DNA of 52,701 bases from Thermoplasmata archaeon (GTDB lineage Archaea; Thermoplasmatota; Thermoplasmata; Thermoplasmatales; Thermoplasmataceae), in assembly GCA_021800105.1 (NCBI GenBank), contig JAJYZI010000003.1:1-52701 (forward strand). Reading direction: 5' to 3'. The notes under the pieces were generated by a model that was not told the origin of the DNA, did no database searches, and was given only the letters and a program-made list of their open reading frames with translations. Positions 12,968 through 35,743 of the stretch are shown piece after piece. How positions within the stretch are numbered: the first letter of the stretch is position 1; the number at the start of each line of letters is the position of its first letter. The translations under genes were made by a program, and so were the position numbers.

Positions 12968-14017
12968 TCAGCTTGAACCAGGAGGTTTAAGCTTGTCAAA
13001 ATTCATAGAACCGCCAAATTTCTGATAGTTTGTAACCCTTCTCTCAAAGAAATCTGTCTTGGTTGAATTCATTGCCGCAAAACTGTCGACCCATGGCATT
13101 GGATGCTTGATCTTTTCGTATGGAGGCTCCAGTCCGATTGATTCAGCTCTCATGTTTCCCAGATACTTGATGTAATTCTCAATGATGTTATCCGATAGCC
13201 CTAGAATCTGGTTTCTTGTGACATATTTTCCCCAGGATATTTCATGCTCCACTGCTGTCATAAGCATTGCTGACAATTCCTGTTTTATATCGCTTGTGTA
13301 CCACTCAGGATTCTCATCCGCGAGTGTTCGCAGTATGTGTGTGAAGAGTGCAAGATGCGTGTTCTCATCCCTCTGGATAAGGCGTATTAGACTCACTGTC
13401 CCTCCCATCTTGTCCTGTCTGCCCAGAGCGTAGAAGAAGGCAAAGCCGCTGTAGAAATAAATTCCTTCCAACAGGTAGTCAGCCATGCAGGATCTCAGGA
13501 AGGCACGTTCGTTGGGGTTTTCAATAAACTCCTGGTACTGATCCGTGATGAACTTGTTCCTGGTGAGAAGATTGGCATCGTCCTTCCACATTGTATATAC
13601 TTCGTCACGAGTTATTGAGTCTACAACCGAAGTCAGAAGGTAATCGTAACTTTGTGCATGTATTGTCTCAAAGAATGCCTGGGTCTTGAGGCATGCGACG
13701 ACTTCAGGCGCCGTTATATAAAGAGCAAGAGCTCCAAGGTTATCCACCTGTATACTATCCAGAAAGATCAGGAAGGCGAGTGTTTTCTTGTAAGCAGTCT
13801 GCTCTGCCTCGGTAAGCTTTGGATATTGTCTCTTGTCATCTCCAAGCGGTACCTCGTCAGGGATCCAGAAAAACTGTCGCATTTTTCTATAAAGCTGCTC
13901 TGCCCAGTCATATTTCACGTTTGCAAATTCAATAAGGTTGGTCGATTTGCCACCTACCAGTCTCTGGTACTTTAAATCCCTGGTTCCATCAGGGTTGAAT
14001 AACAATTTTTTCTGCAT
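12968..14017 (-). CDS. nrdB: Ribonucleotide reductase class I, beta subunit (catalytic)
   Basis: Ligand pattern present: D87 (FLDSIQ), E117/H120 (ETIHAQSY), radical Y124, E184 (LLEGIYF), E218/H221 (RDENTH). Confidence 0.95.
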   Translation of the reverse strand: MQKKLLFNPDGTRDLKYQRLVGGKSTNLIEFANVKYDWAEQLYRKMRQFFWIPDEVPLGDDKRQYPKLTEAEQTAYKKTLAFLIFLDSIQVDNLGALALYITAPEVVACLKTQAFFETIHAQSYDYLLTSVVDSITRDEVYTMWKDDANLLTRNKFITDQYQEFIENPNERAFLRSCMADYLLEGIYFYSGFAFFYALGRQDKMGGTVSLIRLIQRDENTHLALFTHILRTLADENPEWYTSDIKQELSAMLMTAVEHEISWGKYVTRNQILGLSDNIIENYIKYLGNMRAESIGLEPPYEKIKHPMPWVDSFAAMNSTKTDFFERRVTNYQKFGGSMNFDKLKPPGSS

Positions 14018-14028
14018 TATATGTCACC

Positions 14029-16284
14029 TCATGCCTGGCATGATTCACACGCCTCCTCTTTAACTTCTTCTTCGTCCTTTGTATAGTTCCGGAAATAGTA
14101 AATGGTCTTTACACCCATCTTCCATGCATCATAATACAGATTCATGAATCTACGCTCATCAAGATCCTGGGTTGCGTACAGGTTGAGAGACTGCGACTGA
14201 TCTAGGTGCCTTTGCCTTGCCGCAGCTGCCTTGATGCTCCAGGATTGATCTATGGAATGCGCCTCCTTGTATAGCCGGGCATTTTCTGGCGTGAGTTCAG
14301 GTGCTACACGCTTTATAAGGAAGCTCTTCTTCTCTTCGGTGAAAACGGGCTTGAAGATTGGATCCACGCTCGCGGTAGAGCCGGCAATCACGCTTGTACT
14401 TCCAGTTGGGGCGATAGCCATAAGGTAGCCATTCCTCATCCCCGAAGCTTTGACCTTCTCCGCAAGCTCCTGCCATTTTGAATCCGTGTAATCCCTGAGC
14501 CTGAAATATTCACCTGATTCCCAATCACTTCCCTTGAACAGTGGGTACGATCCCCTCTCCTCAGCAAGATCACTGCTTGCCTTGATGGCAACGTAATTGA
14601 TATGCTCAAACAGCCTGTCTGCGAATGCCACATGATCATCTGATTCCCAGTCTATGCCGTTCTGGACCAGAAGTTGGTGGTATCCGGATACCCCTACCCC
14701 AATTGCCCTGTATTTCGTGTTTGTAAGTGTTGCCTGCGGGACAGGTAAATTGTTTAGCGTTATGACATTGTCAAGCATTCTTACCTGAATGGGAATGACT
14801 TCAGATAGCAGCTCAGGTGTATTGGTTCTGCCGAGGTTGATAGAAGAAAGGTTGCATACAACCATATCTCCTGGCTTGTACTTGATTGTTATCGAGTCGG
14901 ATTCGCTTGATTCATGCATGCGCATAGTGGATGATTGGTTCTGCGTTATTTCCGTGCACAGGTTGGATGAATATATTATCCCTGTATTCTTGTTAGGGTT
15001 GAGCCTGTTAACTGTATCGCGATTGAAGAAGAAGGGACCGCCTGTCTCATAGAGGCTTTTCAGAATCAATCCCATAAGCTCGAGCGAACTGATCTCTTTC
15101 CTCGGTACCGCGGGATCGGCTGCGCATTCCATATACCTCCTCTCAAACTCTTCACCCCATGAATCTTCAAGCGCCCATCCTTTTCTTATCCTAACCTCAT
15201 GCGGATCGAAAAGATACCAGCTTTCTCCTTTCTCAAGTCTCTTGTAAAACAGATCGGGTACGCATATTCCAGGAAAAATATCATGCGCTTTACGTCTTTC
15301 GTCTCCATTATTGGTTTTGAGGTCCAGAAAGTCAATAATATCAGTGTGCCATATGTCGAGCCAAATGCTTGCTGCACCTGCTCTTTGTCCCAGCTGGTTA
15401 ACCGATACTGCTGTATCGTTGTACAGTCTAACCCATGGAATCACGCCGCTTCCTACGCCCGAGTAGTCCCTGATCGAACTTCCAAGTCCTCGGATATGAC
15501 CGAGATAGACCCCCATTCCTCCTCCATTCTGAGAGATCTGCGCGAATGCAGTCAATCCATCGAAGATGCCTGAGATCGAATCGTCCGGTGTATCTATGAA
15601 GCAGGAGCTCAGTTGTCCCTTCGGGCGTCTTGCCTGGGCGAGAGTGGGTGTAGCCATAGTTATGTAGAGGTTGGATAAAACCTCATAAAACTTCAGCGCC
15701 CAATAAACTCTGTCTTTCTTCTGTTCAGCAAGAGCGAGGTATATGGATACGCCCATGAAAACATCTTGAGGTAATTCGAACCATTTACCGTCTTTTGATT
15801 GAATCGCGTATCTGTCTACAAGATGCTTCAGTCCAGGATAGCTAAGAAGCAAATCCCTCTCAGGCCTGATGGCCTTTCCAAACATTTCAAAGTCCTCTTC
15901 ATTATATTCTGATAGTACCTTGGAATCATACCTCCCATCCGAGACTAGTTTGGTTATCAGGGTCTTGAAACTGCCATAAGGCTCCACTCTCTGAAGGGCC
16001 GATTCCTTGTAAAGATGATGAAGCAAGAGCCTGGAAGCAACAAAAGTCCAGTCTGGCTCAGACATCTTTACCTTCTCGTTGGCGACCCTGATCAACGTTT
16101 CCTGTATTGTTTTAGTTGAGATCCTGTCGGTAAAATGTATCTGTGCATCGAGTTCAAGTTCCATCGGATCTACTTTTAGCCCCTGGCAGGCTTTCTCAAT
16201 AACAGATCGGATCTTTGTAACATCGATAGGCACCTCTTTACCTTCTCGGTTTATTACTTTAGTGGGCTTCATTATAAATTCCAA
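14029..16284 (-). CDS. nrdA: Ribonucleotide reductase class I, alpha subunit
   Basis: ATP-cone N-terminus, 'QLSSCFIDTPDD', 'SNLCTEI', 'CNLSSINLG', C-terminal 'CESC' redox pair. Confidence 0.95.
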   Translation of the reverse strand: MEFIMKPTKVINREGKEVPIDVTKIRSVIEKACQGLKVDPMELELDAQIHFTDRISTKTIQETLIRVANEKVKMSEPDWTFVASRLLLHHLYKESALQRVEPYGSFKTLITKLVSDGRYDSKVLSEYNEEDFEMFGKAIRPERDLLLSYPGLKHLVDRYAIQSKDGKWFELPQDVFMGVSIYLALAEQKKDRVYWALKFYEVLSNLYITMATPTLAQARRPKGQLSSCFIDTPDDSISGIFDGLTAFAQISQNGGGMGVYLGHIRGLGSSIRDYSGVGSGVIPWVRLYNDTAVSVNQLGQRAGAASIWLDIWHTDIIDFLDLKTNNGDERRKAHDIFPGICVPDLFYKRLEKGESWYLFDPHEVRIRKGWALEDSWGEEFERRYMECAADPAVPRKEISSLELMGLILKSLYETGGPFFFNRDTVNRLNPNKNTGIIYSSNLCTEITQNQSSTMRMHESSESDSITIKYKPGDMVVCNLSSINLGRTNTPELLSEVIPIQVRMLDNVITLNNLPVPQATLTNTKYRAIGVGVSGYHQLLVQNGIDWESDDHVAFADRLFEHINYVAIKASSDLAEERGSYPLFKGSDWESGEYFRLRDYTDSKWQELAEKVKASGMRNGYLMAIAPTGSTSVIAGSTASVDPIFKPVFTEEKKSFLIKRVAPELTPENARLYKEAHSIDQSWSIKAAAARQRHLDQSQSLNLYATQDLDERRFMNLYYDAWKMGVKTIYYFRNYTKDEEEVKEEACESCQA

Positions 16285-16459: not shown

Positions 16460-17464
16460 TCAGCGGGTTCTTATCTCAGAATAGCTTTCAAACCATGGAA
16501 TTGGTTGGCCTCCTACCCCTGGAAACAGCGGGTCCATGGAGAGCATCTTCAGTACCTTGTTTGCCTGTGCCTGAGTAAATTTGGCGATCATGAGGTTGTT
16601 CAGACCAGGAATCATTCCTTCCGTGAGAAACTGCGTAAAATCGGTTTCAAGATTTGTAAGGTCCCTTGTCAATTTAAGAATGTGATCTTTGAGTTCTGTG
16701 GAATTTAAAGTCGGGTTTTCCTCAATGAGCTTCAGATAGATAGAAGTGAATACCTTCGAGTGGATATCAAGGTCACGCTGTATCCGCCTTAAGATCTCAA
16801 ATGTTCCAGGCAACCTGCCTCTTCTTGTAAGCGAGTAAATAAGGCTCAGCTCAGATGGTATCATCGCGACCTGGATGAATATGCTTATAACAAGATCATC
16901 CAGGAAATTTATCACAAGGGGCTTATTTGTAAATTCAAGGAATCTATTATTGATCAGCTTGTTTCTTTCACGCATATTCTCAATTGTTCTCCAAGAGTTG
17001 TATAAGGGGTCTCGTTCTTGCTGTCCCACAACTCCTCTTACCACATTTGAGAGAGCATTAGCGTGGTTAGCTGTTTGCGCAATGATTGGAGAAGCAACAA
17101 GGGTGCACTCAGGTGCAGTAAAGTAAGGTACGATGACGTAATAATTATCGAGAAGTTCGCTCTCAAGAAATACAAGAGAAGCAACAACTCTCTCGGCAGT
17201 TTTCCTTTCCACTTCAGATATTTGGGAATAGTCTTTTTCATCCTTCGTCAGGCTGAATTGTTCACCGGTCCAGTTATTGGCTATGGTTTTTGCATAGTAT
17301 TCGTAAATTTCCTGATACTTAATTTCTCCAAGTTCCATCAGGTTTGTGTTACTTCCAGCAATTATCTTCCTTCGGCTCAACCATCTATCTCCGAGCTCAT
17401 TGAAGAGAGATGTTTTAGAAAGTCTCTGTTGGAGCGTTAAACCGGACTCTGCGGGGTTTATCAT
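16460..17464 (-). CDS. Degenerate ribonucleotide reductase beta-subunit paralog (beta-prime, predicted metal-free)
   Basis: Collinear with the 12968-14017 product (VFLESELLDN, YFTAPE, RRIQRDLDIH, QPIPWFESYS), but most metal ligands, the radical Tyr and the C-terminal tail are missing. Confidence 0.85.
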   Translation of the reverse strand: MINPAESGLTLQQRLSKTSLFNELGDRWLSRRKIIAGSNTNLMELGEIKYQEIYEYYAKTIANNWTGEQFSLTKDEKDYSQISEVERKTAERVVASLVFLESELLDNYYVIVPYFTAPECTLVASPIIAQTANHANALSNVVRGVVGQQERDPLYNSWRTIENMRERNKLINNRFLEFTNKPLVINFLDDLVISIFIQVAMIPSELSLIYSLTRRGRLPGTFEILRRIQRDLDIHSKVFTSIYLKLIEENPTLNSTELKDHILKLTRDLTNLETDFTQFLTEGMIPGLNNLMIAKFTQAQANKVLKMLSMDPLFPGVGGQPIPWFESYSEIRTR

Positions 17465-17841: not shown

Positions 17842-18016
17842 GTTCGTGAATTGAGTCAACACATTTTATCTTTGACCACAAAATCTGGAGAACAAATGAT
17901 CTAAGCATTAAAACAATTTCTCTGGCTAGAAAGAGTATCAATGGCTCGTTACGAAGCCTGATCCTAAACAAGTTTTTATGCGTTGTATTTTTCTAAGTGG
18001 ATATGATACTCATGCA

Positions 18017-18913
18017 ATGCAGCTTGTGGAATGCGTTCCGAACTTCAGCGATGGAAGAAACAAAGAAATAGTGGACAAGATAGTAGCAGCTATTCGTTCA
18101 GTAGATGGCGTTAAGATACTCGACCAGGAAATGGATCCCGATCATAACAGGTCGGTGGTATCTTTTATAGCACCCCCTGATCCAGCCAGAAGAGCAGCAT
18201 TTGAGGGAATTAAGGCAGCTTCCAAGCTGATTGATATGACAAAACATCATGGTGAACATCCGAGGTTTGGGGCTTCTGATGTCGTACCGTTTATTCCTAT
18301 TTCAGATGTTACTATGAAGGATTGCATAGAAATATCCAGAAAACTTGGAGAACAGGTTGGAAAGGAGCTTAACATACCTGTATACATGTATGGTAATTCC
18401 GCGTTATTGGAATCCAGAAAGAATTTGGAGGATATCAGGAACAAGAACTTCCAATTCGAGGAACTAGCTAAAAGCATATCCGACGCGAAATGGAAACCTG
18501 ATTACGGACCATCTGAGGTTGGGACTGCAGGTGCCTCAATCATTGGATCCCGAGAAGCCCTGATAGCATACAATGTCAATTTAAACACTACCAATCTGGA
18601 AATAGGAAAGAAGGTAGCGAAGGCCTTGAGGGCAAAGGATGGCGGTTTGACGTTTGTGAAGTCGCTTGCATTCTTTATTAAGGAAAAAAACATGGTACAG
18701 ATTTCAATGAACCTGACCAATTTCTCAAAGACACCAGTTTACCGGGCGTTTGAGCTTGTCAAATTAGAAGCACTCAGATACGGTATCACAGTTGCAGAAT
18801 CTGAAGTGGTCGGTCTTATCCCCATGGAAGCGATATTGGAAGCATCCAGGTATTATTTGCAGCTAAATTCACTTAAGTCCGATCAGATTCTGGAAGTTAG
18901 AATGATGGAGTGA
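18017..18913 (+). CDS. Glutamate formiminotransferase (FTCD N-terminal type)
   Basis: 'MQLVECVPNFSDGRNKEIVDKIV', 'DPDHNRSVVSF', 'HPRFGASDVVPFIP'. Confidence 0.92.
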   Translation: MQLVECVPNFSDGRNKEIVDKIVAAIRSVDGVKILDQEMDPDHNRSVVSFIAPPDPARRAAFEGIKAASKLIDMTKHHGEHPRFGASDVVPFIPISDVTMKDCIEISRKLGEQVGKELNIPVYMYGNSALLESRKNLEDIRNKNFQFEELAKSISDAKWKPDYGPSEVGTAGASIIGSREALIAYNVNLNTTNLEIGKKVAKALRAKDGGLTFVKSLAFFIKEKNMVQISMNLTNFSKTPVYRAFELVKLEALRYGITVAESEVVGLIPMEAILEASRYYLQLNSLKSDQILEVRMME

Positions 18914-32894: not shown

Positions 32895-33451
32895 CGTGAC
32901 ACTTTGCTAATTGGGAAGAAACATTCTTCTTAGGTTTTGAAAATTAAATAAAGATGCAACAGGAAAACCTGCTTCACCGATTACACGAATTCTTAAGAAA
33001 CATCCTTCCAAGAATAGTTATTAGGCGTATCTGAAACCTTAATATGTGTCATCAGAATAGAAGTCTGAGAAAAAAGATGGATAACGCAACTAGGATTTTC
33101 GTCTCAATTTATATGATCCTCTTGGCATTTGGAATCATAAATATATTGAGCTGGGGAGGTTATTTCAAAGTAAACTGGTTTCCAAATACCCTAAATCTTT
33201 CCTCTTTAGACGCGGGTGCAACGATTATAAACACTTTAGCCATGGTAGTTCATAAATCAAAAGCAATAGCAAGGTCGACCATTTAGAATAGGCTGTTAAT
33301 CTCTAGTTCCTCTTAATAATTACTATATCTGATATCGTATATGATTATGTAATTGGTCACTAAGTTGATTAGTTACTTGCACAAAAACTAGTAATAGAAA
33401 GCCTTTATTTACAATAGAAGATCAATAGGATACCGACAAATGGTGAGAAAA

Positions 33452-35743
33452 ATGCAGGATTACATAGTTAAGAGAAATAAAACCCAGGTCCCTTTCAACA
33501 AGGAAAAAATTACAATGGCAGTATACAAGGCGATGCTCTCTGTAAAGAAGGGCACAATGGTTGATGCCGAGCGTGTTACAGAACTTGTAGTTGCGAGCGT
33601 CGACGCACTGGACCATATACCGTCTGTGGAAGAAGTTCAGGATATGGTTGAAAATGAACTGATGTCATACACAAGAGATGGAATTAGCTTTGCAGATGTA
33701 GCCAAATCGTACATTCTCTACAGGGAACGCCGCAGGATAGTCAGGGAAGAGAAAATGCGCATTGGTGTAACAGATGATCTGAAACTATCCCTTAATGCGA
33801 TTAAGGTATTGGAATCGAGATATCTTCTCAAGGATGAAGTTGGCAACGTGATTGAGACACCAAGGGAACTTTTTCACCGTGTTGCGTACAATGTAGGTAT
33901 AATTGAATATATCTATTCATCCTTAAAAGGTATTACACAGAACGGGATCAAACTTGCACTCGGGGATCTGCAAACTAACACGCTTAAGAGGGCATTTGAG
34001 AACCTCAGGAAGGAGGGATTCGTCAAAGGTACATTCGAATCTTTCATAGAAAGTGCAGGAGCTTATACCGCAGAGGTAAACAAGTATGTTGAGAAATTTG
34101 AAAAATTTATGACCGATCTTGACTTTGTGCCAAACTCCCCAACGTTGATGAACGCAGGCACTCGCCTGGGTCAGCTCTCCGCATGCTTTGTGCTTCCTGT
34201 CGAGGATTCAATAGATGGTATTTTCCAAACACTTGCCGACACCGCCAAGATACACAAATCAGGCGGTGGGACCGGGTTTTCATTCAGCAAACTGAGACCA
34301 AGGGATGACCTTGTAGGTTCGACTAAAGGAGTTGCGTCAGGAGCTCTTTCCTTTATGTCAATATTTGACACAACCACAAATGTCATAAAGCAAGGTGGCA
34401 AGAGACGCGGTGCCAATATGGGCATCCTTAGGTATGATCATCCCGAGATTGTAGATTTCATATCTTCTAAAGACTCTGCCAACACGGTACTGAGCAATTT
34501 CAACATCTCTGTCGGAATAGACAGCGACTTCTTTGAAAGACTTGATCGTGATGATTACGTTGAACTGAAAAACCCGAGGACAGGTGCAGTCGAGAAAAAG
34601 ATGAAGGCGGCAGATCTCTGGAACATGATCATTGATCACGCCTGGAAGACAGGAGACCCGGGACTAATCTTCCTTGACGAGATCAATGCACATAACACCG
34701 TTAAGAATCTTGGAGACATTGAGTCCACTAATCCATGTGGCGAGCAGCCCCTTCTTCCCTATGAATCATGCAATCTGGGCTCGATTAACCTTGCAAGATT
34801 CGTAAAGGGCGGCAAGATCGATCACGAACGCCTCAAGGATGTAATCTGGCTTTCTGTGAGGTTCCTGGACGACGTTATTGACGCCAACCTGTTCCCAGTT
34901 GAGCAGATAGAACGCGTATCGAGAACTACAAGGAAGATCGGTCTAGGCGTCATGGGATTTGCAGACGCACTGGTTCAAATGGGCATCCCATACGCAAGCA
35001 CTCAGGCTCTTAAAACTGCCGAAGACATAATGTCCTTCCTTCAGGACGAGTCACACGCGGCATCTGAAGCACTTGCCAAGGAGAGAGGAGTATTTCCAGG
35101 ATGGAAAGGGTCTTACTGGGAGTCAATAAACCATAAGATGCGCAACTCAACCACTACCACAATAGCACCAACCGGAACTATTTCAATAATAGCCGGATGC
35201 TCATCATCGATCGAACCGCTGTTTGCTCTGGCATTCGTCAGGCACGTATTAGATGGCCAGGAACTGCTCGAGGTCAACCCATATCTGGAGAAGAGCCTGA
35301 AGGATCTTGGACTGTACTCTGAGAAGCTTATGCTTAAGATCGCCCAGACAGGTAACTTATCGGACACTGCACTTCCTGATGATCTTAAGAAACTGTATCA
35401 GACTGCTCAGGAGATAGATTACAAGTGGCATGTGCTAATGCAGGCTGCGTTCCAGAACTACTGTGATTCCGGTGTTTCCAAGACCATAAACCTTCCAAAC
35501 TCAGCGACAAGGGACGACATTGCAATGGCGTACAGGCTTGCCAGAGACCTCCACTGTAAGGGCATAACCGTATACCGGGACGGCTCAAAGTCACAGCAGG
35601 TTCTGTACATGGGTACAAAAGAAAAGAAACCGGAAGATGCAAAACAGGCTACCCAAGAACTTATTATCTCTGCCCCCGACAAGCTGCTCAAAGTCGACTC
35701 CACATATGATCCCGCCTGTACATCAGGGTCATGTACCTTATGA
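33452..35743 (+). CDS. nrdJ: Adenosylcobalamin-dependent (class II) ribonucleotide reductase
   Basis: '[18 protein letters not shown]', '[24 protein letters not shown]', C-terminal 'CTSGSC'; GGTGA precedes the ATG at 33452 (ORF track starts at 33440). Confidence 0.94.

Follow-up and report, generated by a model that had tools for sequence, protein, structure and literature searches.

In the window, by which the whole analysed stretch of 52,701 nucleotides from a Thermoplasmata archaeon (JAJYZI010000003.1) is meant, positions 16460-17464 of the minus strand encode an R2-fold paralog of the radical-generating subunit of class I ribonucleotide reductase (RNR), adjoining an intact nrdA-nrdB pair. 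This paralog, here called beta', is a ligand-deficient and tail-less relative of NrdB with 334 aa plus stop; its reading frame opens with ATG, extends over codons 17464-16463, and is closed by a stop at 16460-16462. All three genes lie on one strand, with beta' upstream of nrdA (14029-16284, minus strand; a class I alpha of 751 aa with one ATP-cone and the catalytic motifs present), followed after 11 bases by nrdB (12968-14017, minus strand; a canonical beta of 349 aa with all six ligands kept and the radical Tyr and tail present). The divergent neighbour of beta' is a formiminotransferase-like gene at 17978-18913, named from sequence resemblance. BLASTP aligns beta' with beta over 319 residues at 26% identity and with 1 gap (E=2e-46), and beta' matches the Pfam family Ribonuc_red_sm (PF00268; E=2e-50, 172 bits against a cut-off of 33.6), in which canonical beta is also placed. 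Because of these two E-values, the likeness of the two proteins is not attributable to chance.

A sequence-only reading of the window had listed seven substitutions between beta and beta' (D87->E101, E117->T131, H120->H134, Y124->L138, E184->Q198, E218->L232, and H221->H235), and all of them proved exact in a joint alignment of 39 sequences, comprising 18 beta' and 21 beta. The seven sites, that is, six ligands and the radical Tyr, are intact in 19 canonical betas; each of the 18 beta' members has lost all but 1-2 of the six canonical metal ligands, and the six-ligand dimetal site of catalytic class I NrdB is absent in all 18. At the position of metal ligand D87, which is D in 19/19 beta, E101 (17162-17164, minus strand, as for all codons below) is found in 17/18 beta', the one exception being Thr in G043. 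The bridging ligand E117 corresponds to T131 (17072-17074), a position held by six different residues across the family (T, L, E, N, Q, and H). Q198 (16871-16873), the equivalent of ligand E184, is replaced by 9 different residues among the 18 members; its column is among the most variable of the family (98th percentile), and the E184 ligand is lost in 17 of the 18. D231 and L232 (16769-16774) correspond to D217 and the ligand E218 of beta; the former is invariant in both beta' and beta, and the latter is Leu, Ile, or Val in every beta'. H134 (17063-17065; beta H120) is invariant in the family, and H235 (16760-16762; beta H221) is H in 11, Q in 6, and N in 1. L138 (17051-17053), at the place of radical Tyr Y124, is Leu in the window's genus only and Tyr in the other 12 members. 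Additionally, a new acid is seen on helix E, E205 (16850-16852; E in 17 and D in 1), where beta has the invariant Gly191. Since the E218 equivalent is aliphatic throughout and E184 is lost in all but one member, a rebuilt canonical dimetal site appears unlikely from the alignment. Nor does beta' belong to R2lox, whose PRK08326 models scored no higher than 23.3 bits, with cut-offs of at least 194, and the ligands are lost.

The absence of the C-terminal tail, which had also been proposed from the single sequence, was borne out. Beta runs about 30 residues further than beta', which stops where the folded core stops. These extra residues are modelled as disordered (pLDDT<50 for beta 317-339), and the low-confidence tail of beta, beginning at residue 317, has no counterpart in beta'. 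All 18 beta' share one end point, PIPWF-D/E...EI-K/R or a near variant; in the window this conserved C-terminal core end comprises beta' 321-334 (PIPWF-E/D...EI-R/K; 16463-16504, minus strand) and is not followed by an alpha-docking tail. The C-terminal tail, with its relay Tyr and alpha-docking peptide, is missing in 18/18 beta', all of which end before it, and no tail-like peptide was found downstream of beta' in any frame.

The 18 beta' orthologs are distributed over 17 uncultured Thermoplasmatales genomes in five genera (g1, g3, g10, g14, and g15) of one family. Beta' was not found elsewhere in a class-wide search of 400 genomes or in a scan of 85,462 species genomes, the scan resting on one peptide pattern, and all named records with beta' are Thermoplasmatota/Thermoplasmatales MAGs. 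With the exception of g2 and g7, the genera in which alpha was found also carry beta'. In all carriers with a locus-spanning contig except G007, beta' lies on the same strand just upstream of alpha, and nearly all carriers, G007 included, have retained the FTCD/cyclodeaminase neighbourhood. In the window's genus, omega, calculated by the Nei-Gojobori method for pairs with unsaturated dS (values of dS above 1 being rough), was 0.024-0.044 for beta', compared with 0.005-0.015 for beta and 0.018-0.043 for alpha, so that beta' is under strong purifying selection; beta' evolves faster than beta. A lack of orthologs and relaxed selection had been named beforehand as the outcomes that would speak for a pseudogene; neither occurred, and the view that the frame is not decaying held, the orthologs being intact throughout and one cut only by a contig end. 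In G043, a TnpB-like transposase-associated gene is located between beta' and alpha (L037 5379-6684).

A model of beta' by AlphaFold2 (32 sequences) has a mean pLDDT of 90.4 and a pTM of 0.92, and its best PDB match is the Aquifex R2 7ail (TMq 0.91, rmsd 1.6), so that an R2 fold can be predicted with confidence. The distribution of constraint over this fold has shifted. Helix C of beta (104-131), which bears E117, H120, and Y124, is the most conserved beta segment (mean entropy 0.07 bits), whereas the same helix in beta' is among the least conserved (1.71 bits); the rank shift from beta to beta' is +0.38, with 3 of 253 alignment windows as high. In a related enzyme, the R2 dimer interface is built by helices B and C (PMC6754362). 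Because helix C of beta' still has few charged residues (10%), some buried contact probably remains there. The C-terminal core end has moved in the opposite direction, toward conservation in beta' (rank shift -0.39, 2 of 258 windows as low), and the G-H loop and helix H have likewise gained constraint. The latter two, beta' 282-302 (EGMIPGL..., F296, Q298, and N302; 16559-16621, minus strand), form a beta'-specific conserved face. Residues fixed specifically in beta' include S96, R159, T274, D275, F296, Q298, K306, G316, and P323, and E205, E282, M284, and E330 are nearly fixed.

According to our preferred reading, to which we give somewhat less than an even chance, beta' would be an R2 pseudoenzyme that serves class I RNR as a non-catalytic accessory or regulatory subunit and tunes or limits the encounter of alpha and beta by protein contact. 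Beta' is kept next to nrdA-nrdB in a single family of acidophilic Thermoplasmatales, where its inheritance looks vertical, and it has neither the canonical dimetal ligands nor a tail to carry the radical to alpha. It would act mainly via the gained conserved surface, comprising the G-H loop, helix H, and the C-terminal core end with E282, D275, Q298, K306, and E330, which would lie on the side where the tail of beta leaves for alpha; the orientation of this face toward alpha is an assumption taken from general knowledge of R2. Beta' would thus modulate the alpha-beta encounter and not serve as half of an obligate radical-generating dimer. Consistent with an accessory role are the shared end point, the retention of 1-2 of 6 ligands, an omega close to that of alpha, the confidently modelled R2 fold, the position just upstream of alpha, the g2 genomes with alpha-beta but no beta', and the move of constraint from helix C to the C-terminal core end; a point against it is G007, in whose 76%-complete genome neither alpha nor beta was found. 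A more specific and more tentative version is that beta' may have become a protein whose sole task is to regulate class I RNR in archaea, working through a new C-terminal face independently of the R2 dimer and the tail, with activity set by the beta:beta' ratio plus the ATP-cone nucleotides.

In the trees, beta' and beta each form one clade (100/100), and a sister relationship of beta' to the Thermoplasmatales family's own beta is neither supported nor rejected (p=0.27). The closest outside beta found, with 54% identity, is encoded on a plasmid of Alicyclobacillus; a bacterial origin of the operon would be in keeping with this but is not proved by it. The genus order of the beta' tree agrees with that of the topoisomerase tree, with (g1,g3) and (g15,(g10,g14)), although some forks are weak; beta' therefore looks vertically inherited. 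A phage or mobile origin was rejected: the beta' profile found no relatives in viral contigs, and the best phage matches are only about 25% identical and are ordinary beta where annotated. A sixth genus, g2, has alpha and beta in its four genomes and no beta'. In the trees of both alpha and beta, g2 groups with g15 (100/99), and alpha rejects a group of g10, g14, and g15 without g2 (p=0.007); in the topoisomerase tree, g2 pairs with g12, and a g2+g15 grouping is rejected (p=2e-4). The simplest reading of these trees is that g2 probably received alpha-beta from a g15-like donor, either without beta' or with its later loss.

Rnr4 of yeast is the eukaryotic obligate heterodimer partner of Rnr2, and an analogous arrangement had been suggested for beta' from the sequence alone. 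It would consist of a beta-beta' heterodimer that works as a half-of-sites radical subunit, since both the cofactor and the alpha-docking tail would be supplied by beta alone, and it is a possible but doubtful explanation. Beta' is indeed a ligand-deficient R2 paralog beside a canonical beta, with gene linkage and fold kept, and its almost charge-free helix C looks as if it were dimer-buried; moreover, the ligand-deficient paralogs work in this manner in apicomplexans, where PfR4 pairs with PfR2 (PMC3824934), and in yeast, whose R2 heterodimer has one cofactor (PMC6754362). However, g2 lives on alpha and beta, and therefore the pair persists without beta', which is not needed for RNR in that genus. 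Helix C of beta is unchanged in g2, with no compensating changes in it, and the 11 fixed alpha changes in g2, compared with 4 in the control g15, are roughly what the longer branch of g2 would predict. In beta', helix C ought to face nearly invariant beta helices, yet it has lost most of its constraint, and beta' is tail-less, unlike R2_e2. The heterodimer is not favoured, since g2 does without beta' and the constraint on helix C of beta' has been lost. What stands of the sequence-only reading is a functional ligand-deficient, tail-less archaeal class I RNR beta paralog, with 18 orthologs, low omega, and its own clade; an obligate structural half is not supported.

It is improbable that beta' has left RNR to serve another partner or pathway, such as one connected with the folate genes nearby (FTCD and cyclodeaminase). 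The near-universal presence of these genes beside beta', even in G007, and the faster evolution of beta' than of beta would be in accordance with such a role, and if alpha and beta were truly absent in G007, the role of beta' would lie outside class I RNR. However, the G007 genome is incomplete, beta' is confined to genera carrying class I RNR and precedes alpha in all other spanning contigs, and g2, with alpha-beta by transfer, is without it. In G007, which is of the g3 lineage, beta' (L046 2251-3244) sits apart from any alpha or beta, near the FTCD/cyclodeaminase genes, and a cutA-like gene downstream replaces nrdA; beta was not recovered in G007 and G046, both of which are incomplete.

Slightly less probable again is a rebuilt site of a different kind in beta', mononuclear and arranged around E101, H134, E205, and D231. 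These residues sit on the helices that bore the old site, and they are conserved in 17 (E101) or all 18 (H134, an acid at 205, and D231) of the members. However, the equivalents of E117, E184, and E218 are scrambled or lost, G043 has Thr at 101, and the H134-D231 pair may owe its conservation to packing, given that it is invariant in beta too. A decaying pseudogene or an assembly artefact, for which the loss of catalytic residues is the sole point, can be ruled out for practical purposes by the intact orthologs with their low omega and common end point, and beta' is not a sequencing error because independent sister-species assemblies show the same ends and ligand losses. In-frame stops reported in some beta copies were dismissed, the ORFs from their own ATG being clean. 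The G094 beta and a second G035 beta' contig are likely contamination, with sequences that match G001 and the G046 lineage.

Metal-less R2 paralogs are known in eukaryotes, namely yeast Rnr4 and apicomplexan R4. Like Rnr4, beta' is an R2 paralog without metal ligands beside a canonical beta in one cell; it differs in that alpha and beta persist without it in g2. The apicomplexan R2_e2/PfR4 is similarly a faster-evolving R2 paralog restricted to its lineage; it accompanies one canonical R2 and is intact in every member. Its functional residues are mostly retained, however, as is the alpha-docking motif at its C-terminus (PMC3824934), and beta', without the dimetal site and the entire tail, does not belong to that type. 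The closest solved relatives, the canonical R2 of Aquifex aeolicus (7ail, in which an iron site is described; PMC8772380) and of C. botulinum (6zjk), have the same fold (TM 0.91-0.96); these are radical-generating subunits with metal ligands, which beta' lacks. An additional prokaryotic form without an active site, the 378-bp short nrdB of Candidatus Liberibacter asiaticus, duplicates the 3' end of its long form with >99% identity (PMC5154197), whereas beta' is a full-length diverged core under selection. Beta' also shares the loss of several carboxylate ligands with the metal-free class Ie NrdF. Class Ie NrdF works via a modified Tyr and a docking tail; beta' has Leu for this Tyr in the window's genus and is tail-less in all members, and so falls outside that class. 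No report of a ligand-deficient prokaryotic R2 pseudoenzyme family was found in the open-access literature searched, which is not proof of novelty. If true, a vertically inherited tail-less archaeal R2 pseudoenzyme would be evidence for an independent origin of such R2 proteins. Some relatives manage with the same alpha and beta but no beta', which offers a natural plus/minus comparison for the role of a dead R2 in a DNA-precursor enzyme.

Several other features of the RNR genes were observed. Alpha of the window's genus and g3 has one ATP-cone and about 750 aa, and alpha of g10, g14, g15, g2, and g7 has two N-terminal ATP-cones and about 880 aa (L037, L039, L043, L049, and L054 being g10, g15, g14, and g2 alpha genes). 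The number of cones showed no link with the presence of beta' (one cone in g1 and g3; two in g10, g14, g15, g2, and g7), and an apparently separate ATP-cone ORF between beta' and alpha was the N-terminal part of a longer two-cone alpha. The additional cone is similar to the one in the class II (B12-dependent type) RNR, which in the window is encoded at 33440-35743, 17 kb from the class I operon, and in g10, g14, and g15 directly after beta. Alpha of G011 (L050 7162-10906) has several broken frames, which may reflect low sequence quality or decay, and the class II RNR of G034 (L048 4466-7787) contains an in-frame insert of about 1 kb near residue 440, probably an intein.
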